Positions 26,327 to 56,374 of a DNA stretch of 64,000 nt are shown one piece after another. The stretch's first letter is position 1. Each line of letters starts with the position of its first letter. Origin of the DNA: Crossiella sp. CA-258035 (GTDB taxonomy: Bacteria; Actinomycetota; Actinomycetes; Mycobacteriales; Pseudonocardiaceae); NCBI RefSeq assembly GCF_030064675.1, contig NZ_CP116413.1:5240001-5304000 (forward strand). Direction: 5' to 3'. A program made the translations under genes and the position numbers. A model generated the notes under the pieces. It was not told where the DNA came from and made no database searches. It saw only the letters and a program-made list of their open reading frames with translations.

Positions 26327-27562
26327 ATGTCCTTCGTTGATGAGGTTTCCTCGGCCGCCGCGCGACTGGCGAACGTCGCGCGCAGCACGCCGCTGGAGGT
26401 CAACCAGCGGCTGTCCGAGCGGACCGGCGCGCGGGTGTGGTTCAAGCGGGAGGACTTGCAGGTCGGCCGCTCCTACAAGCTGCGCGGGGCGTACAACCTG
26501 TTGGCCCAGACCGAGCTCACCGCGGCGGGGGCGGTGTGCGCCTCGGCAGGCAACCACGGGCAGGGCGTGGCGTACGCCTGCCGGCGGCTGGGCATCGAGG
26601 GGCAGGTGCACGTGCCGCGGACCACACCGCGGCAGAAGCGGGACCGCATCGCCGCGCTCGGGCAGGGCCGGGTGCGGCTGGTCGTGGACGGGGACACCTA
26701 CGACGACGCGGCCGCGCTGGCCCAGGAACACGCGGCGGCCACCGGCGCGGTGCTGGTGCCTGCTTTCGACGACCGGCGGACCATCGCGGGGCAGGGCACC
26801 GTGGGCATGGAGATCGTGCGGCAGCTGGGTGGCGCGCCGGATGTGGTGGTGGTGCCGGTCGGTGGCGGCGGGCTGCTCGCGGGAGTGGGGGCCTGGCTGC
26901 GGGCGCACTGCCCGGAGACCAGGGTGGTCGGGGTCGAGCCCTTGGGTGCGGCCAGCATGACGGCGGCGCTGGCCAGTGGCGGGCCGGTGACGCTGCCGGA
27001 GGTGGACTCCTTCGTCGACGGCGCGGCGGTGCGCCGGGTGGGCGAGGTGAGCTTCCCGATGGTCCGGGACTGCGGCGCGGAGCTGGTGACGGTGGCCGAG
27101 GGCGCGGTGTGCACCGAGATGCTGGACCTCTACCAGGTGGACGGCATCATCGCCGAGCCCGCCGGGGCGCTGGCCTCCGCCGCGTTGTGCAGCGAGGTGG
27201 CGATCGGCCCCGACGAGACGGTGGTGTGCCTGCTCTCCGGTGGCAACAACGATGTCAGCCGCTACGCCGAGGTGGTGGAGCGCTCGCTGGTGCACCGCGG
27301 CCTCAAGCACTACTTCCTGGTGGAGTTCCCGCAGGAACCCGGTGCGCTGCGCCGTTTCCTGGACGGCGTGCTGGGGCCCGACGACGACATCGTGCTCTTC
27401 GAGTACCAGAAGCGGGACAACCGGGAGACCGGGGCCGCGCTGGTCGGCATCGAGATCAGCCGCGCCGAGGACTACGACCGGCTGTGGGGCCGGATGAAGG
27501 AGTCCCCGCTGCGGATCCAGCACGTCGCGCCGGGCAGCACGGCCTACCGGTTCCTGGTCTAG
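26327..27562 (+). CDS. ilvA: Threonine dehydratase, biosynthetic short form
   Basis: 411 residues from ATG 26327 (GGAAG at 26311-26315). PLP-lysine K51 in the motif SYKLRGAYN, phosphate loop in PVGGGGLLAG, and SAGNHGQGVAYAC for the substrate. The C-terminal part (about 325-411; FLVEFPQEPGALRRFLDGVL) is an ACT-like domain, as in the short isoleucine-sensitive enzymes of Bacillus and Corynebacterium. It converts threonine to 2-oxobutanoate for isoleucine synthesis. Its last four bases overlap the convergent condensation protein at the edge of the biosynthetic cluster; 2-oxobutanoate supply to the ThDP enzyme there is conceivable but unproven. Confidence 0.92.
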   Translation: MSFVDEVSSAAARLANVARSTPLEVNQRLSERTGARVWFKREDLQVGRSYKLRGAYNLLAQTELTAAGAVCASAGNHGQGVAYACRRLGIEGQVHVPRTTPRQKRDRIAALGQGRVRLVVDGDTYDDAAALAQEHAAATGAVLVPAFDDRRTIAGQGTVGMEIVRQLGGAPDVVVVPVGGGGLLAGVGAWLRAHCPETRVVGVEPLGAASMTAALASGGPVTLPEVDSFVDGAAVRRVGEVSFPMVRDCGAELVTVAEGAVCTEMLDLYQVDGIIAEPAGALASAALCSEVAIGPDETVVCLLSGGNNDVSRYAEVVERSLVHRGLKHYFLVEFPQEPGALRRFLDGVLGPDDDIVLFEYQKRDNRETGAALVGIEISRAEDYDRLWGRMKESPLRIQHVAPGSTAYRFLV

Positions 27563-29385
27563 CCCGGTCCGATCGCGTTCAGCGGTAGCGGCAGCAGGAA
27601 CTGGGCGGTGGAGACCTCAAGTCCGGCCGCGCGCAGCTGTTCGGCCAGGGCGGGCGCGTCGGCCAGGTTGCCGCCGTTGCCGGCGAAGCAGTTCGCCAGG
27701 TCGAAGGTACGGTCCGGGTACCGAGCCTCCAGGACCTTGGTCAGGATGGCCTCCTCCGGGGTCAGCTCGCGACCGGCGGGGCTGCGGCGGCCGTCGCCGT
27801 CCTTGGTCACCGGCAGCTCGCGCCAGCCGGGGGTGTGTTCCCCGGCCAGCCGCAGCCGGTAGCGGCGCGGGGCCGCGGCCAGCGGGTTGACCAGGAGCTC
27901 GGCCATCAGGTGGCCGTGCAGGTCGGCCGGGTCCAGCTCGGGGTCGGTGGTCAGCACCTCCGCGACGAGCTGCTCCCCCGCCACGTGCGCCTCGGCGGCC
28001 AGCACGCCGGGCACGGCCAGCAGGGCCTCCGCGGTGGCCTCGGTGTTGACCCAGTCCCGGCCCGCCCTGGTCCAGCCGGGCTGGACGGGCGGCGCGGGTT
28101 CGGGCGCGCGCGGCGGGGTCAGGCCGGCGGCGGCGCGGACGTCCTCGGCCAGCGCGTGCAGCAGCTGGCTGGACTCGGCCAGGGTGAGCAGGTGGTCGGC
28201 CGCGCGCAGCGAGATCTCCACGACCTGCTTGCCGGGGTGGATGTTCAGGTAGAGCTGTTCGGCCGGCTCGGGCACCGTCTGCTCGGTCAGCTCGTCCGCC
28301 GCGGGCACCTCGGCCTCGTCGTCCTCGTGGTACGGGTGGTAGTTGACCTCCAGCGGCGCGCGCGCCGAGACGCCCCGGTCGAAGGTCGCGCGGGCTTCCG
28401 CGGCCAGCAGCGCGATCGAGTCGTAGTTGCCGTGCTTGTAGGCGCGCAGGCTGGCCGAGTAGGCGGGCCGGAACAGCGCGGGCAGGTCCTGCGCCGGGTC
28501 GGCCTCCAGCACCACCTGGCCGAGCAGGGCGTAGCAGCCGACGCTGTGCTCGGTCGCCTGGTCGAACCGGTTGGCCACCACGGTGTCCATGGTCACCCGG
28601 TGCTCGCCGGTGCGGGCCGCGACCAGGCGGGCCAGTGCCGCGGTCAGCACGGTCGCCGGGCTCACCCGGTGCTGCTCGGCGAGCGTGCGCAGCGCGGTGG
28701 CCAGCGAGGCCGAGCGCAGGGTGACCAGGTGGCTGTGGCCGGCCGGAATCCCGCCGCAGAACGGGGCGAGGGTGTTGGCCGGGATCGAGGCGATCAGCTC
28801 CAGCCAGTGCTCATGCACCCGCTGTGCGCTCTTCTGATTGCCGGTCCTCTCGCGTTCGGCCTGGTCCAGCGGGTGCCAGCGCGGTTCGGCCAGCTCGGCC
28901 GGGCGGCCCGCCGCGGCGGCGGCCAGCAGCTCGGCCAGCTCGGTGGCGGCCAGCTGCGCCCCCCAGCCGTCCACCGCGATGTGGTGCAGGGCCAGCACCA
29001 CACCACTCGGGTGCGCCGCCGGGCCGAACAGCACGGCCTGGCACGGCCAGGAGGTGTCCAGGTCGAACTCATCACCGGTCAGCTCGGCCGCGATGGCCGT
29101 CCTGTCACCGTCCACAGTGGACTCCAGCACGGGCGGCACGTCCGGCGCGCACACCCGCTGCACCGGCTCGGCGCTGGGGAACAGGCTGCGCAGCACCTCG
29201 TGCCTGGTGACCAGTTCACGCAATGCCGCCAGCACCGCCGCCCGGTCCAGCCCCTCGGGCACCGGAACGTGCTGGTACAACGAAAGGGACAATGACAGGA
29301 ACCGCTCACTCGGATCGAGTTGCTGCTCAAGCCAGTGGTACTGCTGGGCCCAGCTCAGCGGCCCCGACCGGAATTCGGCACTCAA
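27559..29385 (-). CDS. Stand-alone NRPS condensation protein with inactive carrier domain
   Basis: 608 residues. Condensation domain about 8-425, with an intact catalytic motif HHIAVDG (H134, H135, D139, G140) and an opening SGPLSWAQQYHWLEQQ of C1 type. Then about 440-535 resembles only the small C-terminal subdomain of an adenylation domain (GVLAAEAHVAGEQLVAEVLT), its usual GKxxR ending replaced by KDGDGRR. Residues about 540-600 align with a carrier protein, but the GGxS Ser is absent: the loop reads GGNLADA (571-577), so no phosphopantetheine arm can be attached. It should join substrates held on separate carrier proteins. A paralogue is encoded at 43758-45668. Confidence 0.88.
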   Translation of the reverse strand: MSAEFRSGPLSWAQQYHWLEQQLDPSERFLSLSLSLYQHVPVPEGLDRAAVLAALRELVTRHEVLRSLFPSAEPVQRVCAPDVPPVLESTVDGDRTAIAAELTGDEFDLDTSWPCQAVLFGPAAHPSGVVLALHHIAVDGWGAQLAATELAELLAAAAAGRPAELAEPRWHPLDQAERERTGNQKSAQRVHEHWLELIASIPANTLAPFCGGIPAGHSHLVTLRSASLATALRTLAEQHRVSPATVLTAALARLVAARTGEHRVTMDTVVANRFDQATEHSVGCYALLGQVVLEADPAQDLPALFRPAYSASLRAYKHGNYDSIALLAAEARATFDRGVSARAPLEVNYHPYHEDDEAEVPAADELTEQTVPEPAEQLYLNIHPGKQVVEISLRAADHLLTLAESSQLLHALAEDVRAAAGLTPPRAPEPAPPVQPGWTRAGRDWVNTEATAEALLAVPGVLAAEAHVAGEQLVAEVLTTDPELDPADLHGHLMAELLVNPLAAAPRRYRLRLAGEHTPGWRELPVTKDGDGRRSPAGRELTPEEAILTKVLEARYPDRTFDLANCFAGNGGNLADAPALAEQLRAAGLEVSTAQFLLPLPLNAIGPG

Positions 29386-30056: not shown

Positions 30057-30806
30057 GTGCTACCAAGACATCGTTTGCTGCTTGCGTTCTCACCACATCT
30101 GGATGACGCCGTTCTCTCCGTCGGCGCGGCAATTGCCGCCCGGATCGAGCAGGGCTGGCAGGTCGTGGTCTGCACGCTGTTCGCCGGTGACCCGGACCTC
30201 CCGGTGCCACCGGGGGCGGCGGCCTTCCACCGGCACTGCGGCCTCGGCCAGGACGCCGTTGCCCAGCGCAGGCTGGAAGATCTCGCCGCGCTGGCCGAGC
30301 TCGGCGCGGTGCCCCGGCACCTCGGTTTCCCGGACGCGGTCTACCGGTGGGTCGACGGCCGGCCGCTGCACGACCGGCCGGGCGCGGTGCTCGATCCCGG
30401 CCTGCCGGCCGAGGAGGCACTGCGGGCCGAGCTGGGTGCGGCCATCGCCGGACTGCTCGAGGAGCTGGCCCCGGCGGAGGTCTGGACCTGCGCGGGCATC
30501 GGCGGGCACGTCGACCACCGGCACACCACCACGGTGGTACGCCAGGAATGCGCCCGCGCGGACCTGCCACTGACGCTGTGGGCCGACCTGCCCTACGCGC
30601 TCACCGGACAGGACCCGCACCCGGTCGCGTGCACCACGCCGGAACCGGCGCACCTGGCCCGCAAGCTCGCCGCCGCCGCGCACTACCGGTCCCAGCTGCC
30701 CGTGCTGTTCCCGCAGGGCACGGACTGGCAGGCGGCACTGGGCGCCGCCGAGGCCTGGTGGCCCGCCGCCGTGCCGAGGGCACGCGCGGGCGCATCCGGC
30801 ACCTGA
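30057..30806 (+). CDS. LmbE/PIG-L family deacetylase
   Basis: 249 residues, GTG start with a G-rich ribosome-binding stretch (CTGGGGGGAT) upstream. Zinc ligands fit the family: SPHLDDAVLSVG (H14, D17) and GGHVDHRHTT (H154). Members remove N-acetyl groups from GlcNAc-containing compounds (GlcNAc-PI, MshB, BtrD, teicoplanin deacetylase). First gene of the rightward sugar/polar operon; with the GT4 glycosyltransferase at 35752 it suggests GlcNAc transfer followed by deacetylation. Confidence 0.88.
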   Translation: MLPRHRLLLAFSPHLDDAVLSVGAAIAARIEQGWQVVVCTLFAGDPDLPVPPGAAAFHRHCGLGQDAVAQRRLEDLAALAELGAVPRHLGFPDAVYRWVDGRPLHDRPGAVLDPGLPAEEALRAELGAAIAGLLEELAPAEVWTCAGIGGHVDHRHTTTVVRQECARADLPLTLWADLPYALTGQDPHPVACTTPEPAHLARKLAAAAHYRSQLPVLFPQGTDWQAALGAAEAWWPAAVPRARAGASGT

Positions 30807-30832
30807 ACCATCGACGCTGAGGGGTTCCACCG

Positions 30833-31960
30833 ATGACCAGCACCGACCAGCAGCTGCCCGCACCGGGCTCGACCGCCATGCTCGAACGCTGCACGCTGCC
30901 GCCGTTCACCCCCGGCAGCCAGACCTTCGACCTGCCCGGTGTGATCCGCCTGGCGCAGAACGAGAGCATCCACGGTCCCTCCCCCGCCGCGGTGGCCGCG
31001 ATCGCCGCCGAGGCGGGCCGGGCGCACCGCTACCCCGACGCCACCGCGGCCACGCTGGCCGGCCGGGTGGCCGAGACCTACGGGCTGCGGCCCGAGCAGG
31101 TGGTGGTGGGCAACGGGGTCGACGAGCTGCTGCTGTTCTGCGCGGTCACCTTCCTCACCGGCGACGCGATCGGCATGGTCACCGGCAACACCTACCCCGG
31201 GCACTGGTCCGCGGTGGACTCCGTCGGCGCCCGGCGGCTGACCGTTCCGTTGCGCGGCAACCGGATCGACGTGCCCGCGGTGGCCGCCGCGCTGCGCGGC
31301 CGGCCGATCACCGCGTTCCTGTGCAACCCGCACAACCCGACCGGCACCGTGCTCACCGCCGAGGAGGTGGCCGTGCTGGTGGAGGCCGCCGAACGCGGCG
31401 GCTCGCTGCTGGTGCTGGACGAGGCATACATGGACTTCGCCGAACCGGACCAGGCCCGCAGCGCCGCCGAGCACGTGCGCAAGGGCGCGCCGGTGATCGT
31501 GCTGCGCACCTTCTCCAAGCTGCACGGCCTGGCCGGGCTGCGCTGCGGCTACGCGCTGGCCTCGCCGGGGCTGGCAGACCGGCTGCGCAGGGTCAAGCAC
31601 GTCACCGTCTACAACGTCAACCGCTACGCCCTGGCCGCGGCCGAAGCCAGCCTGGGCGACACCGCCTTCGCCGACACCGTGCGGGCGCGCACCAGGGCCG
31701 CGATGGCGCACTTCCTGACCGCCATCGAGGACCTGCCGTGGATCCGGGCGCAGGCAACCGTGACCAACTTCCTGCACTGCGAGCTGGACTGGGACGCGCT
31801 GCTGGTCAGCCAGGAGCTGCAACAGCGCAGCGTGCTGGTGCGGCCCTGCGCGGACATGGGTTTCCCGCGCCACATCAGGGTTTCCGTCGGCACCGAGGAG
31901 GAGCTGGACCAGCTGGTGGCGGCGCTGACCGAGATCGCGACCGAACTGGGCCAGCCGTGA
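30833..31960 (+). CDS. HisC-like PLP aminotransferase
   Basis: 375 residues; GAGGGG precedes the ATG. Fold type I aminotransferase close to histidinol-phosphate aminotransferase: NPHNPTGTVLT (165-175), LDEAYMDF, and Schiff-base lysine K229 in RTFSKLHGLAG with the phosphate-binding Arg in GLRCGYAL. No other his genes are present, so it is more likely a cluster-specific transaminase acting on a small keto or aldehyde intermediate. It overlaps the next gene by four bases (GTGA). Confidence 0.88.
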   Translation: MTSTDQQLPAPGSTAMLERCTLPPFTPGSQTFDLPGVIRLAQNESIHGPSPAAVAAIAAEAGRAHRYPDATAATLAGRVAETYGLRPEQVVVGNGVDELLLFCAVTFLTGDAIGMVTGNTYPGHWSAVDSVGARRLTVPLRGNRIDVPAVAAALRGRPITAFLCNPHNPTGTVLTAEEVAVLVEAAERGGSLLVLDEAYMDFAEPDQARSAAEHVRKGAPVIVLRTFSKLHGLAGLRCGYALASPGLADRLRRVKHVTVYNVNRYALAAAEASLGDTAFADTVRARTRAAMAHFLTAIEDLPWIRAQATVTNFLHCELDWDALLVSQELQQRSVLVRPCADMGFPRHIRVSVGTEEELDQLVAALTEIATELGQP

Positions 31961-32979
31961 GCGCCCGCCCCGCCTGCTCGGTGATCGTGCCGGTCTACGC
32001 CCGCCGGCACGACCTGGCCAGGCTGCTCGGCAAGCTGGGCGAGCAGACCGGCGCGCCGGAGTTCGAGGTCCTGGTGGTGGAGAACGGCCGCAGGCTCAAC
32101 TACCGGTGGCTGCGCCAGCGGGAGTGGCCGTTCCCGGTGCGCTACGAGTACGTCGCCGACGGCGCGCAGGCCAAGGCGCGCAACGTCGGCGCCGCGCTGG
32201 CCGCCGCGCCCCGGCTGCTGTTCCTGGACTCCGACATCGATCCCGGGCCGAACACCGTGGCCGCGCTGGGCAACGGCGAGCGGCCGGGCGTGGTGATGGC
32301 CGACGTGGTCTTCCCGGCCCGCACCAAGGTCAGCCTGGCCACCCACCTCTACGACGTGCCCGCCTACTTCCGCACCACCTACCGGGCCAGGGCGCGCACC
32401 GGACTCTCCTTCCGGGACTTCGTCTCCTGCTCCTTCACCATGTCCCGCGAGGAGTTCCTGGCGCTGGGCGGCTTCGACGAGGGCTTCACCCACTACGGCT
32501 ACGAGGACGTGGAGTTCGCCTGGCGCGCGGAGAAGGCGGGCATCCCGTTCCACCTGGGCGGGGCCAAGGTGGCCCACCACAAGCAGCTCGGGCCCACCGC
32601 GGTGCACGCCCGCGCGCAGCAGCTGGGCCGCTCCGCCGTGCACTTCGTCCGGCGGCACCCCGACCTGGAGGACACCCTGCCGCTGGGCGTGCGGGACACC
32701 CTGGACGGGGTGCTGGCCTTCCCGCCGGTCTTCGACATCGACCGGCTGCTGCGCGAGGCGGCCTGGATCGAACGCCAACTGACCATGCTGCGCCGCGGCC
32801 CGAGCCTGGGCCGGGCGCGCGGGCTCATCGCCCGTGGCCGGGAGGTCTACCACGAGATCACCCGGTTCGGCCGCTACCAGGGCATCAGCACCGAGCTGGC
32901 CCGGCTGGACACGCGCACCACCACACAGGAAAGGGGTGGCCATGGAACTCAACTCCTACCTCTACCGGCGGCTCGCTGA
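31957..32979 (+). CDS. Family 2 glycosyltransferase
   Basis: 340 residues from GTG 31957. GT-A fold: SVIVPVYARRHDLARLLGKL at the start, the DxD metal motif in FLDSDIDPG (D91, D93), and the acceptor-side motif HYGYEDVEFAWR. The C-terminal 80 residues are helical and family-variable. Similar enzymes add sugars to polyols, lipids or natural products; substrates unknown. Its end overlaps the ThDP enzyme start by 38 bases. Confidence 0.85.
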   Translation: MSARPACSVIVPVYARRHDLARLLGKLGEQTGAPEFEVLVVENGRRLNYRWLRQREWPFPVRYEYVADGAQAKARNVGAALAAAPRLLFLDSDIDPGPNTVAALGNGERPGVVMADVVFPARTKVSLATHLYDVPAYFRTTYRARARTGLSFRDFVSCSFTMSREEFLALGGFDEGFTHYGYEDVEFAWRAEKAGIPFHLGGAKVAHHKQLGPTAVHARAQQLGRSAVHFVRRHPDLEDTLPLGVRDTLDGVLAFPPVFDIDRLLREAAWIERQLTMLRRGPSLGRARGLIARGREVYHEITRFGRYQGISTELARLDTRTTTQERGGHGTQLLPLPAAR

Positions 32980-34630
32980 GGCCGGCGTCGCGCGTGCCTT
33001 CGGCGTGCCCGGTTCGTTCGTGATGCCGATCTGGCAGACCTTCAAGGGCAAGCCGGACATCATCCTGTCCCGGCACGAGACCGGCGCGGCGTTCATGGCC
33101 GACGGCTGGAGCCGCGCCACCGGCAACCTGGGCGTGGTGCTGGCCACCATCGGACCCGGCCTGGTGAACTGCGTGCCGGGAGTGGCCAGCGCCTACCGCG
33201 ACTCCATCCCGCTGCTGGTGGTCACCGGCCAGGCGCCCACCGCCAGCCTGGGCCGGGGCGCGTTCCTGGAGTCCTACTCGCTGGACCGCAGCGTCGCGCC
33301 GACCGAGCTGTTCCGCCCGATCACCAAGGCGTCACTGGAGATCGTGGACGCGGCCAACGCGGACTTCCTGATCGACACCGCGATCTCGCTGGCCCTCTCC
33401 GGCCGCCGCGGTCCGGTGCACCTGAGCATCCCGATCGACCTGCAGGCCGCCGCGCTGCCGGAGCGGGCCGCGAGCGCGCCGCCGCTGGCGGTGACCAGCG
33501 CCTTCCGCGGGCAGGCCCAGGACGGGGTGGCCCGGCTGGCCGAGGAGCTGGCCGCGGCGGCCCGCCCGCTGGTGCTGCTGGGCTGGGGCGCGGAGCTGGC
33601 CGGGGTGGGGCCCGAGGTCGAGCTGCTGGCCCGGCGGCTGGACGCGCCGGTGCTCTCCTCCACCAAGGCGGTGGCCGCGGTGTCCCCGGCCAGCGCGCAC
33701 GCCCTCGGCCACCTCGGCCCAGGGCAGCGTTCGGACCTGCTGCCCTTCGTCACCGGCTACGACCCGGACCTGGTGCTGATCCTGGGCGCCAGCCTGTCCG
33801 CCTTCTACGCCGCCCCGCTGGCCGGGCTGCTGGCCAAGGCCCGCACGGTGCGGGTGGACGTGGATCCCGACCAGCTCTTCCTGCGGCACCAGCCCGATGT
33901 CGCGGTGCAGGCCGACCTGCGCACCCTGCTGCCGGAGCTGCGCGCGGCACTGGACGCCGTTCCCGTCACGCGGGAACCCGTTGTGCCGCAACGGCTCGCC
34001 GAGTTCCGGGCGCGCTGGGCGCGGGCCGCGGCGGCGCAGGAGCTGCCGTATGCCGACACCGTGTCCATGTCCGGGGTGCTCAGCCGGATCGGCGAGTACC
34101 TGCCCCCGGAGGCGGTGGTGGTGCCGGATGCCGGGAACCACTGGCTGGACACGCTGTCCCTGCACCGGCCGCCGGTGGCGGGCGGGCTGCGGCTCAACGT
34201 CGGGCTGGGCGCGATGGGCTGGGCCATCGGCGCCTCGGTCGGCCTCGCGCTCTCCGGCCAGGTCGGGCGCACCGTGCTGGTCACCGGGGACGGCTCGATG
34301 CTGATGCACGGCACCGAGCTGTCCGTGGCCGCCGAGCACGGGGCGAACCTGGTCGCGCTGGTGTTCAACAACCGCTCGCACGGCCGGGTCCGGCTGGGGC
34401 AGAAGCTGGACTTCGACGGCGACCTGATCGGCACCGGCCTGCCCAAGATCGACTTCACCCAGTGGATGTCCGCGATGGGCGTGCGCTCCTTCCGGATCAG
34501 CCGCCCCGAGGACGTGGACCCGGTGCTGCGCGAGGCTTTCGCCACCCCGGGCACGGTCGGGGTGGAGATCGAGTGCCACCCGGACGAGGTGCCCGCCTGC
34601 CTGCGGAACTGGATCGAGGACGTGGCATGA
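32942..34630 (+). CDS. ThDP-dependent acetolactate-synthase-like enzyme
   Basis: 562 residues from ATG 32942 (GGAAAGGGG upstream). N-terminal Pyr domain with the cofactor-activating E46 in SRHETGAAFMADG, a central domain about 190-330, and a C-terminal PP domain with the Mg-ThDP motif GDGSMLMHGTELS ending in VALVFNN. Family members include acetolactate synthase, carboxyethylarginine synthase and decarboxylases. No small regulatory ALS subunit is encoded nearby and an SDR follows directly, so a cluster-specific C-C or C-N bond-forming or decarboxylating step is inferred. Confidence 0.88.
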   Translation: MELNSYLYRRLAEAGVARAFGVPGSFVMPIWQTFKGKPDIILSRHETGAAFMADGWSRATGNLGVVLATIGPGLVNCVPGVASAYRDSIPLLVVTGQAPTASLGRGAFLESYSLDRSVAPTELFRPITKASLEIVDAANADFLIDTAISLALSGRRGPVHLSIPIDLQAAALPERAASAPPLAVTSAFRGQAQDGVARLAEELAAAARPLVLLGWGAELAGVGPEVELLARRLDAPVLSSTKAVAAVSPASAHALGHLGPGQRSDLLPFVTGYDPDLVLILGASLSAFYAAPLAGLLAKARTVRVDVDPDQLFLRHQPDVAVQADLRTLLPELRAALDAVPVTREPVVPQRLAEFRARWARAAAAQELPYADTVSMSGVLSRIGEYLPPEAVVVPDAGNHWLDTLSLHRPPVAGGLRLNVGLGAMGWAIGASVGLALSGQVGRTVLVTGDGSMLMHGTELSVAAEHGANLVALVFNNRSHGRVRLGQKLDFDGDLIGTGLPKIDFTQWMSAMGVRSFRISRPEDVDPVLREAFATPGTVGVEIECHPDEVPACLRNWIEDVA

Positions 34631-35376: not shown

Positions 35377-35381
35377 GCCTT

Positions 35382-35759
35382 ATGTACCAGGTGGTTTCGA
35401 TCGAAGAGCCGATGTGGCCCTCGCTGCGCGAGATGTTCGACGAGCTGGGCGAGCCGCCCCAGGTGCTCACCAGGGACAGCCCGCACCCGCTGGTGGTGCA
35501 CGAGGTGATGGGGCAGCTGACCTTCGTGCAGGAGGGCAGCGGGTTCATCTCGCTGGACGGCGACGAGCGCCCGGTCAAAGCGGGCGACCTGCTGATCCTC
35601 AGCTCCCGGTGCGAGCACGCCTTCCTCTCCGCGGTGGACGGCGAACTGGTGCTGCGGCACTGGCACTGGCCCGCCGCGCTGCTGGAGACCGACCGGAAGA
35701 TCCTCACCTGGGACTACCGGTTCAGCCTGCCCGGGGCCGCGGTGTCCGCCGGTGACTGA
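35382..35759 (+). CDS. Small cupin protein
   Basis: 125 residues, single cupin beta-barrel. The second cupin motif is visible (GDLLILSSRCEHAFLS) and the first (around residues 38-60) has one His (LVVHEVMGQ). ATG 35382 follows the SDR stop by five bases. Such proteins may be isomerases, dioxygenases or sensors; metal ligands are not complete enough to decide. It overlaps the GT4 gene by 8 bases. Confidence 0.8.
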   Translation: MYQVVSIEEPMWPSLREMFDELGEPPQVLTRDSPHPLVVHEVMGQLTFVQEGSGFISLDGDERPVKAGDLLILSSRCEHAFLSAVDGELVLRHWHWPAALLETDRKILTWDYRFSLPGAAVSAGD

Positions 35760-40862: not shown

Positions 40863-40871
40863 CACCCTTCC

Positions 40872-45853: not shown

Positions 45854-46015
45854 TGACGTAGGGGGTGTCGTTACCGGAACGACCCGCGCAGCTGAGCCGT
45901 CTGGGTGGCGAATCAACCGCCAGGTGCGCGAATTCCGGCAACACCCGACAAGTGCTGGCGACCACCCGTCCAGCCTGCCATCTTCCCAGCTAGTCGCACT
46001 GCGGAGGGGACTGTC

Positions 46016-49298: not shown

Positions 49299-49303
49299 GC
49301 GGC

Positions 49304-50446
49304 ATGGACTTCGCGCCCACCGCGGACCAGCGGGAGTACTGCGCGGTGATCAGCGACCTGGCCGCCGCCCTGCCGCCGCCGCGCGCCGGGGAAGACGGCG
49401 TGGTCCGGTTCGACCAGGAGGCCTGGCGGCGCTGCGCCGAGGCGGGCCTGCTCGGCCTGACCGTGCCTGCCGAGTACGGCGGCGGCGGGGCGGACGCGCT
49501 CACTGCCGCACTGGCCATGGAGGCCCTCGGCCAGGGTTGCCGGGACAGCGGGCTGATGTTCTCGCTGAACGCCCAGATGTGGGCCGCCCAGCACCCGATC
49601 GCCCGCTTCGGCTCGCCAGAACAGAAACAGCGCTATCTGCCCGCGCTGTGCGGGGGCGAGCTGATCGCCGCGCACGGCATGACCGAACCCGGCTCCGGCT
49701 CCGACGCCTTCGCCCTGCGCACCAGCGCGGTCCGGGACGGGGACAAGTGGCGGCTGACCGGCTCGAAGCTGTTCGTCACCAACGCGCCGGTGGCCGGGTT
49801 GTTCGTGGTCTTCGCCAGCACCGACCGCAACCGCGGCTTCGCCGGGCTCACCGCGTTCCTGGTGCCCCGGGACACCCCTGGCCTCAGCGTCGGCCCCGAC
49901 GAGCGCAAGCTCGGGCTGCACGGCTCGCCGATGGCCCAGGTGTTCCTGGACGACTGCGTGCTGGAGGCGGACGCGTTGCTGGGCAAGCCCGGCGGCGGCG
50001 CGGCGGTGTTCCTGTCCTCAATGGACTGGGAGCGCACCCTGATCCTGGCCTGCGTGGTCGGCGCGATGGCCCGGCAGCTGGCCGAGACGGTGGCCTTCGC
50101 CAAGGAGCGCGAGCAGTTCGGCCACCCGATCGGGGAGTTCCAGGCGGTCTCGCACAAGGTCGCCGCCATGCGGCTGCGGCTGGAGTCCGCGCGGCTGCTG
50201 GTGCGCAGGGCCGCCTGGGCGCTGGACCACCGGGACGACCCGCGGCTGCACGGCGCGCTGGCCAAGCTCGCGGTCAGCGAGTCCTACGTGGCCTCCAGCC
50301 TGGACGCGCTGCAGATCCGGGGCGGCTCGGGTTTCCTGGCCGAGTCCGGCCTGGGCCAGGAGTTGCTGGACGCGGTGGGCAGCCGGTTGTACTCGGGCAC
50401 CTCGGAGACGCTGATGAACCTGGTAGCCAAGAAGGTGGGACTGTGA
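49304..50446 (+). CDS. Acyl-CoA dehydrogenase-like prolyl-carrier oxidase
   Basis: 380 residues from ATG 49304 (AAGGGGTGAG upstream). Acyl-CoA dehydrogenase fold: FAD-side motif HGMTEPGSGSDAFAL, central GFAGLTAFLVPRDTPG, C-terminal LQIRGGSGFLAESGLGQE and RLYSGTSETL. It is followed by a carrier protein and a prolyl adenylation enzyme; in prodigiosin, pyoluteorin and aminocoumarin clusters this trio oxidises prolyl-S-carrier to pyrrole-2-carboxyl-S-carrier by four electrons. Context makes that assignment strong. Confidence 0.88.
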   Translation: MDFAPTADQREYCAVISDLAAALPPPRAGEDGVVRFDQEAWRRCAEAGLLGLTVPAEYGGGGADALTAALAMEALGQGCRDSGLMFSLNAQMWAAQHPIARFGSPEQKQRYLPALCGGELIAAHGMTEPGSGSDAFALRTSAVRDGDKWRLTGSKLFVTNAPVAGLFVVFASTDRNRGFAGLTAFLVPRDTPGLSVGPDERKLGLHGSPMAQVFLDDCVLEADALLGKPGGGAAVFLSSMDWERTLILACVVGAMARQLAETVAFAKEREQFGHPIGEFQAVSHKVAAMRLRLESARLLVRRAAWALDHRDDPRLHGALAKLAVSESYVASSLDALQIRGGSGFLAESGLGQELLDAVGSRLYSGTSETLMNLVAKKVGL

Positions 50447-50703
50447 CCGCGCAGACGGTGATCGAGACCTCGGTCCGGGAGTTCGTGCTCAAGAGCCGCC
50501 GCTGGCCCGGCCCGGACGTGCCGCTGACCGAGAGCTATCCGTTGCTGGACAACGGGGTGCTGGACTCCATGACGCTGATGGAGCTGGTCGCGCACCTGGA
50601 GCGCCAGTTCGCCATCGTGGTGGAGGACGAGGACATCCTGCCGGAGAACTTCGAGGACCTGGCCGCGATCGTCCGCTACGTCCGGGAGAAGGAGGGCAGC
50701 TGA
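50443..50703 (+). CDS. Carrier protein for prolyl/pyrrolyl
   Basis: 86 residues from GTG 50443, overlapping the oxidase stop (GTGA). Carrier motif LLDNGVLDSMTLMELVAHLE with phosphopantetheine S42 and the LDS form. Length and position match the discrete prolyl carriers of pyrrole pathways (PltL, RedO, CloN5). The adenylation gene follows after one base. Confidence 0.9.
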   Translation: MTAQTVIETSVREFVLKSRRWPGPDVPLTESYPLLDNGVLDSMTLMELVAHLERQFAIVVEDEDILPENFEDLAAIVRYVREKEGS

Positions 50704-50704
50704 G

Positions 50705-52213
50705 GTGGACTACCTGCTGCACCACTACCTGGACGCCTCGGCCGCGGCCACCCCGCACGCGGTCGCGGTGGTCGACGGCGGCGGCGAGCACAGCTATGCG
50801 GCGCTGAGCGAGCGCGCCGACCGGATCAGGGGCGCGCTGCACGCCGCCGGGGTGCGGCCGGGCGACCGGGTGGGCATCCACGCGGAGAAGTCCGTGGACA
50901 CCGTCGCCGCGATCTACGCGGTGCTGCGGGCCGGTGCGACCTACGTCTGCCTCGACCCGCAGGCGCCCCCGGCCCGGCTGGTCACCGTGGTCGCCGACGG
51001 CGGGCTCACCGCGGTGCTGGCCGACGAGCCCCGCCTCGGCACGATTCCCGGGGCCAGGGTGCTCGCGCTGGCCGAAGCGGTCACCGCAGAGCCGCACAGC
51101 GAACCAGCGCCCGCCACCGAGGGCGACCTGGCCTACCTGATCTACACCTCCGGCTCCACCGGCGCGCCCAAGGGCGTGATGCTCAGCCACCGCAACGCGA
51201 TGGCCTTCGTGGACTGGGCGGTGGCGGAGTTCGCCATCACCGCGGCCGACCGGCTCTCCAGCCACGCCCCGCTCCACTTCGACCTGTCCATCCTGGACCT
51301 CTTCGCCGCGGCCAAGGCCGGGGCGGCGGTGGTGCTGGTGCCGCCTCGGCTGTCCCTGTTCCCGGTGCGGCTGGCCCAGTTCATCGCCGAACAGCGCATC
51401 TCGGTCTGGTACTCGGTGCCCGCCGTGCTCAGCGCGCTGGCCACCCGCGCCGGCCTGTCCCCCGGCGCGCTGCCCGCGCTGCGCCTGGTCCTCTTCGCCG
51501 GCGAGGTGTTCCCGGTGGACCGGCTGCGCGCGCTGATGGAACTGTTGCCCGGCAAGCGGTTCGCCAACCTGTACGGGCCGACCGAGACCAACGTGTGCAC
51601 CTGGCACGAGCTGGACAGCCCGCCGCCACCGGGGGCCACCGAGATCCCGATCGGCCGCGCCATCGCCAACACCCGCGCCTGGGCCGCCGGACCCGACGGG
51701 CAACCGGTTCCGCCCGGCGAGGTCGGCGAGCTGTACGTGCGCGGGGCCACCGTGATGCGCGGCTACTGGGGCGATCCGGCCCGCAGCGCGGAGAAGCTGG
51801 TGCCCAACCCGCTCACCGGCGCCGACGGCGACCTGGTCTTCCGCACCGGCGACCTGGTCCGGGCCGATGCCACCGGCAGCTTCACCTTCATCGGCCGCCG
51901 CGACGGCCAGATCAAGAAGAACGGCTACCGGGTCGAGCTGGGCGAGATCGAGTCAGTCCTCAATAGACAGTCCTTTGTGGACGAGTGCGCGGTGGTCGCG
52001 GTGCCGGACGCGGCGGGCAGCACCCGGATCGAGGCGTTCCTGGTGCTGCTGGGCGAGGCGGGCGCGGAGCAGGTCTACGCCGCCTGCCGGGAACGGCTGC
52101 CCGGCTACATGGTGCCGGACGCGGTGCACGTGATCCAGGCCATCCCGCGCACCTCCACCGGCAAGGTGGACCGGCAGCGGCTGGCGCACAGTGGTGGCAG
52201 GCTGACCGGATGA
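50705..52213 (+). CDS. L-prolyl-AMP ligase (stand-alone adenylation enzyme)
   Basis: 502 residues, GTG start. Core motifs: A3 YTSGSTGAPKGVM, A4 HFDLSILDLF, A5 NLYGPTETNVCTW, A7 FRTGDLV, A8 GRRDGQIKKNGYRVELGEIE, A10 TSTGKVDRQ. Reading the ten-residue pocket by alignment to PheA gives D-L-L-Y-L-A-L-V-C plus the Lys, which is the code of prolyl-AMP ligases such as PltF and CloN4. It should charge the carrier encoded just upstream with proline. Confidence 0.9.
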   Translation: MDYLLHHYLDASAAATPHAVAVVDGGGEHSYAALSERADRIRGALHAAGVRPGDRVGIHAEKSVDTVAAIYAVLRAGATYVCLDPQAPPARLVTVVADGGLTAVLADEPRLGTIPGARVLALAEAVTAEPHSEPAPATEGDLAYLIYTSGSTGAPKGVMLSHRNAMAFVDWAVAEFAITAADRLSSHAPLHFDLSILDLFAAAKAGAAVVLVPPRLSLFPVRLAQFIAEQRISVWYSVPAVLSALATRAGLSPGALPALRLVLFAGEVFPVDRLRALMELLPGKRFANLYGPTETNVCTWHELDSPPPPGATEIPIGRAIANTRAWAAGPDGQPVPPGEVGELYVRGATVMRGYWGDPARSAEKLVPNPLTGADGDLVFRTGDLVRADATGSFTFIGRRDGQIKKNGYRVELGEIESVLNRQSFVDECAVVAVPDAAGSTRIEAFLVLLGEAGAEQVYAACRERLPGYMVPDAVHVIQAIPRTSTGKVDRQRLAHSGGRLTG

Positions 52214-53208
52214 TCCGCAGCACCACACCGGCCGTGCTGGTCGAGGGCCTGGTCAAACGCTATCCCCGGCGGGAGGTCCCGGCGGTGGCCGGACTGAGCT
52301 TCCGCATCGCCGAGGGCGAGGTGTTCGGACTGCTCGGCCCCAACGGGGCGGGCAAGAGCACCACGATCGGCGCGATCACCACCAGGGTGGTGCCCACCTC
52401 AGGTGAGATCCGCATCGCCGGGGTGGACGTGCGCGCCCGGCCGGTGGAGGCCCGGCGGGTGCTCGGTGTGGTGCCGCAGCACAACAACCTGGACCGGGCC
52501 ATCTCCATCGAGCAGAACCTGCTCTTCCACGCCCGCTACCACCGGCTGCCCGCCGCCCGCCGCGGCGAGCTGGCCCGTCAGCTGCTCACCGAGTTCGGCC
52601 TGGCCGGGCACGCCGGGGAACGGCCGCAACGGCTTTCCGGCGGCCAGGCGCAGCGGGTGAAGATCGCCCGCGCGCTGATGCACGACCCGGCCGTGCTGGT
52701 GCTGGACGAGCCGAGCACCGGCCTGGACCCGGCGGCCCGGCAGTTCATCTGGCAGCGCGTGCGCGAGCTGCGCGCCAGGGGCGTCACCGTGCTGCTCACC
52801 ACGCACGACATGGTGGAGGCGGCCGAGCTGGCCGACCGGGTCGGCATCATCGACCACGGCAGGCTGATCGCCATGGACACCCCGGCCGCGCTGACCAGCA
52901 CGGTCACCGACGACACCGTGCTGGAGGTGGCGGGCACCCCGGGACCCGGCTTCGGCCAGGCCGAGCTGGCCGAGCTGCGGCAGGCCGCCGCCGGACTCGG
53001 TGGCGTGCGCGAGGTCGAACAGGCCGAGCTGCGCCCCGAGCACCAGCGGCTGCGGCTGCGCCTGATCGCCGACACCGGCACCCCGGGACTTCTGTCCACA
53101 GTGGACACGCTGCTGGCCGCGCGCGGGGTGGCGCTGGCCGATGTGCACGTGGGCAAACCCACCCTGGAGGACGTGTTCCTGCGCCTGACCGGGCGGTCCC
53201 TGCGATGA
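52210..53208 (+). CDS. DrrA-like ABC transporter ATPase
   Basis: 332 residues; ATG overlaps the previous stop. Walker A LLGPNGAGKSTT, signature LSGGQAQRVKIARAL, Walker B LVLDEPSTGLDP, switch TTHDMVEAAELADRVG. The long C-terminal extension (about 235-332) is as in DrrA-type drug-resistance ATPases. It forms a pair with the permease that overlaps it. Being inside the biosynthetic operon, it is probably for product export or self-resistance, additional to the exporter at 41903. Confidence 0.92.
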   Translation: MIRSTTPAVLVEGLVKRYPRREVPAVAGLSFRIAEGEVFGLLGPNGAGKSTTIGAITTRVVPTSGEIRIAGVDVRARPVEARRVLGVVPQHNNLDRAISIEQNLLFHARYHRLPAARRGELARQLLTEFGLAGHAGERPQRLSGGQAQRVKIARALMHDPAVLVLDEPSTGLDPAARQFIWQRVRELRARGVTVLLTTHDMVEAAELADRVGIIDHGRLIAMDTPAALTSTVTDDTVLEVAGTPGPGFGQAELAELRQAAAGLGGVREVEQAELRPEHQRLRLRLIADTGTPGLLSTVDTLLAARGVALADVHVGKPTLEDVFLRLTGRSLR

Positions 53209-53987
53209 GCCGGGCCCTGGACTACACCCGCACCTTCGGCGCGGTGCTGCTGCGCGACCTCTACGTCACCGGCCGCGACCTGTGGAGCTTCCTGGCCCAG
53301 GTGCTGCTGCAACCGCTGTTCATGCTGCTGGTCTTCGGTCACGTCATCACCGCGGTCGGCTTCGCCTCGCCCGGCTACGCCAACCTGCTCTTCCCCGGCA
53401 TGGTCGCCTTCACCGCGGTGCTCACCGGCGTGCAGGGCACCGGTCTGCCGCTGGCCATCGACTTCGCCGCGTTCAAGGAGATCGAGGACCGGCTGCTGGC
53501 CCCCTTCCCGCTCGGCCTGGTCGCGCTGGAGAAGGTGGTCTTCGGCATGCTGCGCGGGGTGCTGGCCGCCGCCGCGGTGTACCCGGTGGGCTGGCTGGTG
53601 CTGGACTCGGTGCCGGTGCGCCCGGAGGGCTTGCCGCTGCTGGTGCTGGTGATCGCGCTGGGCGCGCTGACCGGGTCCACGCTCGGCCTGGTGCTGGGCA
53701 CCTGGGTGCCGCCGGAGAAGATCAACCTGCTGTTCGCGGTGCTGCTGCCGCCGCTGCTGTTCACCGGGGCCAGCCAGTACCCGTGGCCTGCCCTGTCCGC
53801 GCTGCCCTGGTTGCAGACGGTATCCCTGTTCAACCCGCTCACCTATGTCAGCGAGGCCGCGCGGGCCGCCTCGCTGGAGAGCGTGGAGCACCTGCCGGTG
53901 TGGCTGTGCCTGACCGTGCTGACGCTCTTCCTCTGTGTGCTCGCTCCGGTCGGACTGGCCGGTTTCCGCCGCCGGGTGCTGGACTGA
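53205..53987 (+). CDS. DrrB-like ABC-2 permease
   Basis: 260 residues, start overlapping the ATPase stop. Six membrane segments (about 25-45, 55-80, 105-130, 140-165, 172-190 and 228-250) with the ABC-2 family segment FPGMVAFTAVLTGVQGTGLP and a cytoplasmic N-terminus (LLRDLYVTGRDLWSFLAQVL). Partner of the preceding ATPase. Confidence 0.9.
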   Translation: MSRALDYTRTFGAVLLRDLYVTGRDLWSFLAQVLLQPLFMLLVFGHVITAVGFASPGYANLLFPGMVAFTAVLTGVQGTGLPLAIDFAAFKEIEDRLLAPFPLGLVALEKVVFGMLRGVLAAAAVYPVGWLVLDSVPVRPEGLPLLVLVIALGALTGSTLGLVLGTWVPPEKINLLFAVLLPPLLFTGASQYPWPALSALPWLQTVSLFNPLTYVSEAARAASLESVEHLPVWLCLTVLTLFLCVLAPVGLAGFRRRVLD

Positions 53988-54002
53988 CCACGAAGGACAC
54001 CG

Positions 54003-55448
54003 ATGACACCGACACTCGCCGCCGCGCTGCACCCCGAGGGCGTGCTGCGCTCACCGGGCCGGGACGCACTGTCCACAATGGAGCTTATCGGGCTGGCCGA
54101 CCGGCTGGCCGCCGCGGTCCGGATCCCCGGTTCGGCCGCGCCGCAACGGATCTGGCTGGCCACCGACGACCCGGCCCTGCTGCTGCCCGCCGCGCTCACC
54201 CTGGCCGACGGGCACTCCTGCCTGCTGGTCAGCGCCGCGCTCAAGCCACCGGAGTACGACCGCCTCGCCGAGACCACCTGGCCCGACCTGGTGCTCACCG
54301 ACCCGGGCGCGGCCGACCTGTGGCAGTGGGCGAAACAGCGCCAGGCCCCGTGCGCGGAGATCGGCGCGCTGCTCGCGGGCGAGACGGTCACCGTCGAACC
54401 CGGTGCGGGCGAGGCGGCTGCGCCGGGCATCGGCTTCTTCACCTCCGGCACCACCGGCCGCCCCAAGCACATCGGCTTCACCCCGGCCCAGATCGTCACC
54501 GCCGCCGGTGGCGTGGCCGACCGGCTCCGCCTCTCCCCCGCCGACACCGGCCTGGCGCTGAGCCCGCTCAACCACACCCTGGGTTTTGTCACCACGGTGC
54601 TCGCCCCGCTGCTGCGCGGCGGCCGGGTCACCGTCGGCGGGGTCCGGGACGTGGCCGCGCTGGCCGAGGTCACCGAACGGGACCGCCCGACCTGGTGCGC
54701 CAGCGTGCCCGCGGTGCTCAGCCAGCTCCAGCGGCTGAGCGAGTCGGGCCGGATCAGCCTGCCCGAGCTGCGCCTGCTGCGGGGCAGCGCGGCCGCGCTC
54801 GGCGCGCGGCGGCAGGTCGCGCTGGCCGAGCACTTCGGCGTGCCGGTGGTCAGCGCCTACGTGATGACCGAGGCGCCCGGTGAGCTGGCCTCCCAGGGCC
54901 TGCCGCCGGAGGTGGCCACCCCCGGCACGGTCGGCCACCCCACGCTGTGCGAGATCGAGGTCCGCGACGAGCAGGGCCGGGTGGTCACCGGCGAGCCCGG
55001 CGAGATCTGGGCCAGGGGCGCGATCATCTCCGCCGGGGCGCGCACGGTCGGGGGCTGGCTGCCCACCGCCGACCTGGGCGTGCGCGCCGCCAACGGCGAA
55101 CTCACCGTGCTGGGCCGGCTGGACGACGTGATCAACTGCGGCGGGGAGAACGTGCTCGCCCACGAGGTGGAGACCGCCGCCCAGTCCTGCCCAGGGGTGA
55201 GCGAGGCAGTCGCCTACCCGGTGCCGGACGAGCTGCTCGGCGCCACCGTCGGCCTGGTGCTCACGGCCAGCCCCGGGGTCACCAGGTCCCAGCTGCGCAA
55301 GCACCTGGTGGGCCTGCTGTCTGCCCAGAAGCTGCCCAGGACCTTCCTCACCGTCGAGGACATCCCGCGCACCCCCCGCGGCAAGATCAGCCGCCGCCAA
55401 CTGCACACCCAACTGGCCGCGCTCGCCTCGGTCACCGAACTGCCCTGA
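54003..55448 (+). CDS. Adenylate-forming ligase, third of the cluster
   Basis: 481 residues. Motifs: A3 FFTSGTTGRPKHIGF, A5 SAYVMTEAPGE, A7 GWLPTADLGV, A8 GRLDDVINCGGENVLAHEVE, A10 TPRGKISRRQ with the catalytic Lys. The A8 form with CGGENV and the ALSPLNHTLGF segment place it nearer to acyl-CoA/aryl ligases than to amino-acid adenylation domains. It could activate an aryl or acyl acid onto one of the free carrier proteins; substrate unknown. Followed by the transglutaminase-like gene. Confidence 0.87.
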   Translation: MTPTLAAALHPEGVLRSPGRDALSTMELIGLADRLAAAVRIPGSAAPQRIWLATDDPALLLPAALTLADGHSCLLVSAALKPPEYDRLAETTWPDLVLTDPGAADLWQWAKQRQAPCAEIGALLAGETVTVEPGAGEAAAPGIGFFTSGTTGRPKHIGFTPAQIVTAAGGVADRLRLSPADTGLALSPLNHTLGFVTTVLAPLLRGGRVTVGGVRDVAALAEVTERDRPTWCASVPAVLSQLQRLSESGRISLPELRLLRGSAAALGARRQVALAEHFGVPVVSAYVMTEAPGELASQGLPPEVATPGTVGHPTLCEIEVRDEQGRVVTGEPGEIWARGAIISAGARTVGGWLPTADLGVRAANGELTVLGRLDDVINCGGENVLAHEVETAAQSCPGVSEAVAYPVPDELLGATVGLVLTASPGVTRSQLRKHLVGLLSAQKLPRTFLTVEDIPRTPRGKISRRQLHTQLAALASVTELP

Positions 55449-55465
55449 CCGGAAAGGAGACCGCG

Positions 55466-56374
55466 GTGAGCACTCCCGTGCGCGAGATCGTGGCCCGCGC
55501 CCGCCGCATCCCCGAGCACCACCGCAGCTTCACCGAGACCGCGGAGACCGCCACCAAGGTCCACCAGATCCCGCCGGACCTGCTGGCCGAGCTGACCGCC
55601 GAGGGACTCCCCCGCGCCGACACCCCGGACGGCCCGCGCTACGACAACCACGACCTGGCCAGCATCGCGGTCACCCTGCGCCTGCCCTCACCGCGGTTCA
55701 TGGGCATGCGCGGCTGGGTCGCGGCCCTGCGGCACGGCACCGCGGGCGTCCCGGTCGACTACGCGGTCCGCCTCATCCCCACCTGCGTCGGCGGCTGCCC
55801 CGACCCCGGCGCGCCCTACCGGATCCACCCCGGCCTGGCCCCGCTGATCACCGAGCACCCCGCCGACCCGGCCAGGCCGGTGTTCACCGTCCGGCACCGC
55901 GCCCAGGGCACCAGCCTCGACCTCACCGGCGCGCCCCGGGAGCTGATCGAGCTGCTCAGCGAGGTCGAGCACTACCTGGTCCCCTCCCTCGACCTGCGTG
56001 AGGACCTGGACTTCGTCCGCCGCACCCGCCTGGCCGACTGCGACCTGGCCGCCCGCTACCTCGCCGCCGAGGCCGTCCGCATGGGCGTCGAAGCGCGCAC
56101 TTCTTTTGGCCTCCTGCTGGCCAAGCCCTACTCCACCGGCCACAGCTGGCTGGACATCAAGGTGGGCGACACCTGGCACCCCTTCGACCCGCTGATCGGC
56201 AAGATGCTGGCCAACGCCGGCCTCACCCCGCCCGGCGAATGGCCCGCGCACCGCTCCCTCGGCGCCTCGTTCCTGCGCTTCGCCGACGAACCGGTGGAGC
56301 TCCTCGAGCACTGCGGCGTCCCGGTCCGCCTCGGCTTCCCCACCAAGCGGACCCCGGTACCGGAAAGTCCGTGA
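55466..56374 (+). CDS. Transglutaminase-like protein, possible amide synthase
   Basis: 302 residues from GTG 55466 (GGAAAGGAGA upstream). The C-terminal half shows the transglutaminase/papain-like triad in correct order: C192 (ADCDLAARYLAAEA), H226 (GHSWLDIKVG) and D241 (TWHPFDPLIG). The N-terminal 120 residues are unassigned. In andrimid synthesis AdmF, a transglutaminase homologue, makes an amide bond between two carrier-bound substrates; a similar role is attractive here because free carriers abound and no modular NRPS exists. Last gene of the operon. Confidence 0.8.
   Translation: MSTPVREIVARARRIPEHHRSFTETAETATKVHQIPPDLLAELTAEGLPRADTPDGPRYDNHDLASIAVTLRLPSPRFMGMRGWVAALRHGTAGVPVDYAVRLIPTCVGGCPDPGAPYRIHPGLAPLITEHPADPARPVFTVRHRAQGTSLDLTGAPRELIELLSEVEHYLVPSLDLREDLDFVRRTRLADCDLAARYLAAEAVRMGVEARTSFGLLLAKPYSTGHSWLDIKVGDTWHPFDPLIGKMLANAGLTPPGEWPAHRSLGASFLRFADEPVELLEHCGVPVRLGFPTKRTPVPESP

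Follow-up and report, generated by a model that had tools for sequence, protein, structure and literature searches.

Gene content and conservation of the block

The window analyzed here is a 64,000-nucleotide stretch (bases 5240001-5304000) of the 9.17-Mb single-contig genome of Crossiella sp. CA-258035; the available portion of PMC9415966 assigns Crossiella to Pseudonocardiaceae. Gene calls and Pfam/NCBIfam scans place 27 genes within 27559-56374 (Table 1), among them a candidate proline-to-pyrrole gene set, stand-alone condensation proteins, sugar-type enzymes and exporters. On balance, we read this block as one orphan cluster for a secreted small molecule in which a proline-derived pyrrole would be joined to amino-sugar parts.

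Genes were called with a gene caller and then scanned with Pfam and NCBIfam, all 27 block genes being included. The starts of genes 27559, 30057, 40872 and 46290 were set by hand, and carrier gene 46013-46297, absent from the gene caller output, was added from a list of small open reading frames (ORFs). An earlier prediction, made from the sequence of the window alone (the original prediction), had counted two condensation proteins, three carriers, three adenylate-forming enzymes, an oxidase, a transglutaminase-like protein, two glycosyltransferases and two transport systems; each of these items was recovered. It had also claimed that modular nonribosomal peptide synthetases (NRPS) and polyketide synthases are lacking. 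Indeed, the Pfam scans detected no ketosynthase (KS), no multi-module NRPS and no condensation-adenylation-thiolation (C-A-T) or KS-acyltransferase-acyl carrier protein (KS-AT-ACP) module in the block; beyond the C domain, the condensation proteins contain just a part similar to the C-terminal AMP-ligase subdomain (A_C-like part) and a tail lacking the carrier serine. The scanned genes contained no TTA codons.

Table 1. Genes of the block and its right edge in window coordinates
Feature	Coordinates	Strand	Evidence
C1, stand-alone condensation protein: C domain (HHIAVDG), A_C-like part, carrier-like tail without Ser	27559-29385	-	PF00668 89.5 bits
PIG-L type deacetylase	30057-30806	+	PF02585 28.7 bits, cut-off 28.2 (shorter start scored); HLDD and HVDH
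HisC-like class I/II aminotransferase	30833-31960	+	PF00155 166 bits; TIGR01141 250 bits, below cut-off 276.6; best solved match 3hdo
Glycosyltransferase family 2 (GT2)	31981-32979	+	PF02709 32.2 bits; PF00535 27.8 bits
Thiamine diphosphate (ThDP)-dependent acetolactate-synthase-like enzyme	32936-34630	+	PF02776, PF00205, PF02775
Short-chain dehydrogenase (SDR)	34627-35376	+	PF00106
Cupin	35382-35759	+	PF07883 30.3 bits, cut-off 27.2
Glycosyltransferase family 4 (GT4), weakly EpsE/MshA-like	35791-37017	+	PF13692; TIGR03449 73.7 bits, far below cut-off 462.5
RlmM/FtsJ-type rRNA 2'-O-methyltransferase	36989-38020	-	PF01728 42.8 bits; RlmM model 80 bits, below cut-off 176; 4atn 42 bits
Radical S-adenosylmethionine (SAM) protein with SPASM domain	38116-39231	+	PF04055, PF13186; CNLKCSMC
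Phosphoribosyltransferase (PRTase)-like protein	39228-39944	+	PF00156 17.9 bits, below cut-off 26.3; DDVLMSG; weak PyrR match (E 0.14)
HAD-type phosphatase	39944-40615	+	PF13419 93 bits
Carrier protein	40602-40865	-	PF00550 32.7 bits; LGLSS
SDR	40872-41633	-	PF00106 152.7 bits; start picked by eye, frame open to 41822
ABC exporter (membrane and ATPase portions fused)	41903-43696	+	PF00664, PF00005
C2, stand-alone condensation protein: C domain (SHLAADG), A_C-like part, carrier-like tail without Ser	43758-45668	-	PF00668 95.3 bits
Carrier protein, RGDSL motif	46013-46297	+	PF00550 37 bits
AMP-ligase, overlapping carrier gene 46013-46297	46290-47750	+	PF00501 116.9 bits
Alpha/beta hydrolase, hydr2_PEP-like	47747-48577	+	PF12146 28.1 bits, cut-off 27; TIGR03101 64.7 bits (below cut-off)
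Alpha/beta hydrolase, hydr1_PEP-like	48570-49298	+	PF12146 25.5 bits, just under cut-off 27; TIGR03100 46 bits (below cut-off)
Prolyl-carrier-protein dehydrogenase-like oxidase (putatively pyrrole-forming)	49304-50446	+	RedW model 434 bits, PigA 406 bits (cut-offs 650, 500); 4irn, 6cxt, 5zw0
Putative carrier for proline/pyrrole	50443-50703	+	PF00550 28.2 bits; LDS
Putative L-prolyl adenylating enzyme	50705-52213	+	TIGR01733 390 bits; best solved match of core, L-proline ligase 6o6e
ABC exporter ATPase	52210-53208	+	PF00005
ABC-2 membrane protein	53205-53987	+	PF01061
Acyl-CoA-ligase-like AMP-ligase	54003-55448	+	PF00501 115.6 bits
Transglutaminase-like protein with Cys-His-Asp	55466-56374	+	PF01841 24.1 bits, cut-off 23
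MFS protein, right edge, possibly part of block	56734-57903	-	PF07690; match above 50% in G188 only, among Crossiella stretches compared

The block was compared with a genome of the same species (G188, taken as Crossiella sp. SN42) and with three other Crossiella species (G185, G186 and G187). The ilvA-like gene 26327-27562 on the left flank was found in all five Crossiella genomes at an identity of at least 90%. Next to it, the block was complete and collinear in SN42, and the aligned block genes contained no internal stop codon. Together, these two observations indicate that the block exceeds a chance string of genes. Different genes follow the ilvA-like gene in the three other species, and no block gene was matched above 50% identity in their stretches beside the flanks. 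A genome-contig scan with C2, which reaches close relatives only, returned one relative, SN42 (97% identity).

The block is mostly under purifying selection. The ratio of nonsynonymous to synonymous substitution rates (dN/dS) between the two strains was 0.026-0.426 in 25 of the 27 genes, and carrier gene 50443 showed zero change, its dN/dS being undefined (dS 0). For flanking genes with true orthologues the ratio was 0.060-0.553, flank row 5866 being left out as a paralogue match. Since these ranges are similar, the block seems to be kept as ordinary genes are, not more strictly. At the third codon position, carrier gene 46013-46297 (46028-46297 scored) had a GC content of 0.68, and the remaining 26 genes of the block had 0.87-0.98; this carrier gene is possibly a recent import, although SN42 has it conserved as well.

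Among 390 genomes of the family, C2 was found in 28 (at 1e-20), the radical SAM gene in 7 (at 1e-30) and the PRTase-like gene in 2 (at 1e-5), and none of these genomes was G185, G186 or G187. For the ThDP enzyme, no further genome was detected among 366 of the phylum at 1e-90, a strict limit. When 72,556 plasmid records were searched with C2, 93 contained distant C matches, none of which covered 80% of C2 at one place. In plasmid records, radical SAM matches occurred in 19, each below 60% identity, and the PRTase-like and transglutaminase-like proteins had no match.

A putative proline-to-pyrrole trio

Sequence comparison provides good support for a proline-to-pyrrole trio in the block. For the core of ligase 50705-52213, the L-proline ligase 6o6e was the top match among solved structures, and the two proteins have in common the pocket segments FDLS(I/V)LD, WYSVP, LFAGE and L(Y/F)GPTETNVCT. 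With the full-length ligase, the two-domain chains of gramicidin synthase LgrA totaled 478 bits, but their better single domain reached 258 bits versus 339 bits for 6o6e. The three top solved matches of oxidase 49304-50446 were 4irn (prolyl-ACP dehydrogenase), 6cxt (titled butyryl-CoA dehydrogenase, presumably also with a prolyl role) and 5zw0 (L-prolyl-carrier dehydrogenase), and its two top models were RedW and PigA. The carrier gene 50443-50703, with the pantetheine serine within LDS, lies between the oxidase and ligase genes.

Such a trio of ligase, carrier and oxidase yields a pyrrole-2-carboxyl group bound to the carrier as a thioester. In the block, L-proline would be adenylated by 50705, loaded on carrier 50443 and oxidized there by 49304 to the pyrrole-2-carboxyl thioester. 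The pyrrole-2-carboxyl unit, which the original prediction had placed at the center of the pathway, is supported by the 6o6e and 4irn/5zw0 matches and by the RedW and PigA models.

The trio is common to known pyrrole families, and the block might encode a prodiginine-, pyoluteorin- or aminocoumarin-type pathway. We regard this as highly improbable. According to the Pfam scans, ketosynthase and halogenase families are absent from the 27 genes, as are the families that would match prodiginine and pyoluteorin pathways. Genes for the aminocoumarin ring, for noviose or another dTDP-sugar and for a resistant gyrB were likewise absent from the block.

Stand-alone condensation proteins and their probable partner genes

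C1 and C2 belong to a protein family present in other genomes of Pseudonocardiaceae. In nine aligned members, the C domain is followed by the A_C-like part and then by the tail. When compared by hhalign, the A_C-like part matched the C-terminal AMP-ligase subdomain at 95.3% (E 2e-8), whereas an unrelated segment reached 4.1%. The tail aligned end to end with carrier domains when 11 carriers were used (48%, E 1.8e-4; two control segments 0.2-0.5%; positive control 88.8%); the value was 0.4% with a smaller set of six carriers, and the Pfam scan detected no carrier match in the tail. Furthermore, serine is missing from the carrier position of the tail in all nine proteins. These results suggest, but do not prove, that the tail is a degenerate carrier, the A_C-like part being the better supported of the two. 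Of the HHxxxDG motif, the second His and the Asp are kept in 9/9 proteins, and the whole motif is intact in five, including C1. Predicted structures of C2 (three sequences) and of the tail had mean values of 44.5 and 51.7, respectively, in the predicted local distance difference test (pLDDT), and neither was used.

A third C protein of the genome (5431563-5433140, approximately 148 kb from C2) is 44% identical to C1. Its gene is overlapped by an SDR gene (51% to the window SDR 40872-41633), and a carrier gene (40% to 40602) is located a few kilobases away. This similar C/SDR/carrier set suggests that C1, SDR 40872 and carrier 40602 work together. By eye, the surrounding cluster (5415000-5450000) contains genes for the C-A_C-tail protein, the SDR, an AMP-ligase, a pyridoxal phosphate decarboxylase-like protein, an acyl-CoA-dehydrogenase-like protein and the carrier; it adjoins asparagine-synthase-like, HprK-like and ABC genes, which recall a lasso peptide cluster. 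In two other genomes (G219 and G092), a C protein was seen by eye together with a KS-like, a ThDP-type and an oxoamine-synthase-like protein, a carrier and an SDR.

We propose that C1 and C2 would couple carrier-bound pieces into amides (or esters), and that two further acids would be activated by ligases 46290 (with carrier 46013) and 54003. The hydrolase pair 47747-49298 resembles hydr1/hydr2 of exosortase gene sets, with scores below the cut-offs, and a ligase and a carrier gene adjoin it. C proteins with degenerate tails would represent an actinomycete family of stand-alone amide synthases that is open to testing.

Enzymes of the putative sugar half

From their families, we infer that the left-half genes (GT4, GT2, PIG-L, HisC-like, PRTase-like, HAD, SPASM radical SAM and ThDP) fit an amino-sugar core. 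GT4 35791 and PIG-L 30057 gave low scores to the MshA and BshB1 models. N-Acetylglucosamine is usually added by a GT4 protein and then deacetylated by a PIG-L protein, for example in mycothiol and in some aminoglycosides; in butirosin biosynthesis, a PRTase-like and a HAD protein add and then dephosphorylate ribose. Inspection by eye revealed sugar-type genes in 5/5 neighborhoods of radical SAM relatives from other species; the radical SAM protein had no match among solved structures at 0.001.

The left half would build an amine-bearing sugar part, with GT4 adding an N-acetylamino sugar, PIG-L deacetylating it and GT2 adding another sugar. Ribose may be added by the PRTase-like protein and the HAD phosphatase, and the HisC-like aminotransferase, the ThDP enzyme, the SDRs, the cupin and the SPASM radical SAM protein would tailor the sugar part. 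The product would be exported by the ABC systems.

The ThDP enzyme also bears on a different reading of this half. Its best solved match was BbmA, followed by acetolactate synthase isozyme 1 and then CsmA. CsmA and 'BpmA', the latter presumably being BbmA, are called homologues of CybE, the maker of alpha-hydroxy-beta-keto acids (PMC12395478). With these matches tied to CybE, and with a HisC-like aminotransferase, a ThDP enzyme and a HAD protein that could make an amino alcohol, the enzymes may yield a non-sugar amine or a cyclitol-like core, and the pyrrole amide product would not be glycosylated in the usual sense. We consider this rather unlikely; it would leave two glycosyltransferases and a deacetylase unexplained.

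It is also conceivable, if on the whole unlikely, that two adjacent but functionally separate clusters are present: one for a sugar/polysaccharide or a thiol-like compound (30-40 kb) and a small pyrrole-acyl cluster (46-56 kb). The MshA-like GT4 and the PIG-L protein recall mycothiol/bacillithiol making, although with weak scores, and both halves occur together in no compared locus outside the species. However, NRPS-type parts are present in both halves, and C1 stands far left while its probable partners, the carrier and the SDR, are at 40.6-41.6 kb. Moreover, the tested genes of both halves co-occur in the two strains and are jointly missing from the three other Crossiella species.

The transglutaminase-like protein

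Relatives of the transglutaminase-like protein 55466-56374 were detected in two other genomes (G656 and G582) of 366 from the phylum. Cys, His and Asp are conserved in all three aligned sequences; no solved structure was matched at 1. The stretches of both relatives contain a DegT-type aminotransferase and a GT2-like protein. In G582, the gene adjoins a cupin gene, with the two former genes near it. The 40-kb stretch of G656 has, in addition to the DegT-like protein (seen by eye) and GT2, a PIG-L protein, a HAD protein, carriers and an AMP-ligase. Since the relatives are located near amino-sugar genes, the protein may join an acyl group to an amino sugar, and it would thus form a further amide, most likely on the amino sugar of the product.

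The G656 locus (contig 25) also contains several phosphodiesterase-like proteins, two near-identical carriers, luciferase-like oxidoreductases and radical SAM-like proteins (partly by eye). It looks like another orphan sugar-containing cluster.

An RlmM-type methyltransferase in the block

The protein encoded at 36989-38020 is named RlmM-type, not RlmM, because its score is below the equivalog cut-off of the RlmM model (Table 1). The solved structure 4atn, its best match, was aligned with residues 171-340 only. The methyltransferase motifs hold the K-D-K-E residues, which we take to be the RlmM-type tetrad. RlmM is the 2'-O-methyltransferase of C2498 in 23S rRNA.

Of 60 genomes searched, five contained the methyltransferase: the own genome, G185, G187, G201 and, weakly, G406. 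It was not found in G186. In the own genome, the single copy detected at E 1e-5 is located inside the block, and its dN/dS between the strains was 0.083. Around the gene in G185, G187 and G201, no other window gene was matched above 50 bits. In G185 and G187, which lack the cluster, it stands beside a LuxR-type gene. This LuxR-type gene and most of its neighbors are kept in the own genome at 6.976 Mb, where the methyltransferase and the four preceding genes of the G187 order were unmatched and ABC-transporter-type genes are present instead. The cluster methyltransferase is 79-81% identical to the G185/G187 copies, and the genes kept at the old site are 77-89% identical; this resemblance would be expected if a gene passed on vertically had been relocated. 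The methyltransferase gene may have moved into the cluster, or the other species may have retained it after losing a cluster.

A sole in-cluster copy with this dN/dS suggests ribosome self-protection, and the RlmM-type methyltransferase probably protects the ribosome of the producer. If it is a self-protection gene, the ribosome is indicated as the target ahead of the product. Self-resistance through 2'-O-methylation of the RlmM type would, in our judgment, then be unusual. The presence of the gene in species without the cluster and the loss of the stretch at the old site allow another role of the methyltransferase; since a whole stretch of genes is unmatched there, its absence from that site may be plain regional change.

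A further version of our reading is a speculative one, which we think improbable as a whole: the product would be a pyrrole-acylated amino-sugar antibiotic acting at the ribosomal peptidyl transferase center, the RlmM-type methyltransferase, recruited into the cluster from the own genome, would protect the producer, and the amides would be formed by a distinct family of C-A_C-degenerate-carrier proteins and by the transglutaminase-like protein as a sugar N-acyltransferase.

Evidence for and against one cluster

Several observations weigh against one cluster with a pyrrole and an amino-sugar part. No regulator gene was recognized among the scanned block genes, and no NDP-sugar synthase was detected in the block. 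Some assignments are near or below model limits: the PIG-L protein barely exceeds its Pfam cut-off, the PRTase-like protein is below its cut-off although the DDVLMSG motif is present, and both top models of the oxidase, RedW and PigA, scored sub-cut-off (Table 1). The first His of HHxxxDG is missing in C2. Carrier gene 40602-40865 (94% identity, dN 0.026, dS 0 between the strains) is an exception to the purifying selection. Both relatives of the transglutaminase-like protein are under the Pfam cut-off of 23 (22.0 and 18.8), and neither a carrier nor a PIG-L protein was seen in the G582 stretch. Finally, no product is known and no sibling cluster was found, so that the link between the two halves comes from their contiguity.

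Despite these points, a single cluster is the reading that we favor slightly. The sequences themselves show which genes the block holds, where it ends, that two strains conserve it, the genes of the putative proline-to-pyrrole trio, intact motifs and a methyltransferase gene whose sole copy is in the cluster. From the genes, we infer the step order, the glycosylation, the amide bonds, the ribose and the target. Of the glycosylated pyrrole-acyl amide that had been proposed originally, the pyrrole part is strongly supported, and glycosylation and amide bonds are plausible. The expectation that the product is unlike a known one agrees with our searches, in which no sibling with the same gene set was found in the genomes, plasmids and literature covered. 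Because a well-understood pyrrole starter and a sugar half for which no described counterpart was found are kept together in two strains, the block is a promising place to look for a new metabolite. The A_C-like parts and tails of the C proteins and the RlmM-type methyltransferase go beyond what had been predicted.

Neighboring features of the window

Two short ORFs (63 and 94 amino acids) at 16935-17601 on the minus strand are 75-83% identical to parts of an 1884-amino-acid NRPS, which G185 and G187 have close to the ilvA-like gene. The G188 stretch contained no match for them. The region has probably lost an NRPS, of which these ORFs would be the decayed remains. At 61151-63528, arsenate-reductase-like, ACR3-like, ArsR-like and glyoxalase-like proteins were recognized by eye as an arsenic-resistance set; for the arsenate-reductase-like and ACR3-like proteins, G185 has matches of 73-80% close to this flank.

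Comparison with known systems

Word searches of the literature, on such a combination of genes and on pyrrole in Crossiella, found no matching cluster. According to the available portion of PMC9415966, C. cryophila produces dopsisamine. Neither a structure nor genes for dopsisamine were found in the literature, and we claim no link to the cluster.

The prolyl-carrier starter systems (PltF/PltE, RedM/RedW, PigA and AnaB) are like the block in having an adjacent prolyl ligase, a discrete carrier and an acyl-CoA-dehydrogenase-type oxidase. In contrast to these systems, the block hands the pyrrole to no ketosynthase; condensation proteins, ligases and sugar enzymes neighbor the trio instead.

Pyrrolamides such as congocidine and distamycin are made by stand-alone condensation and carrier proteins, from carbohydrate-derived pyrroles and by iterative aminopyrrole coupling. 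The original prediction had named congocidine-type pyrrolamides as close relatives. The stand-alone condensation and carrier proteins are indeed alike, but the block differs by its single, proline-derived pyrrole set, and closeness to the congocidine type is not supported.

OaaC is a free-standing C domain of fatty acid amide biosynthesis, which joins an ACP-bound acyl group and an amine (PMC13142362, available portion). As far as that description goes, it is like C1 and C2 a stand-alone C protein, whereas those of the block add the A_C-like part and the carrier-like tail and sit among sugar genes. In andrimid biosynthesis, the transglutaminase-like enzyme AdmF makes an amide from carrier-bound acyl groups. 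By description, AdmF is a model for the transglutaminase-like protein of the block, whose relatives sit near amino-sugar genes. RlmM and the block methyltransferase are alike in the FtsJ domain and the K-D-K-E motifs, but the latter differs in scoring only 42 bits to 4atn and below the model cut-off. In this comparison, the block appears to combine known types of enzyme in a new way and does not look like a new type of system.

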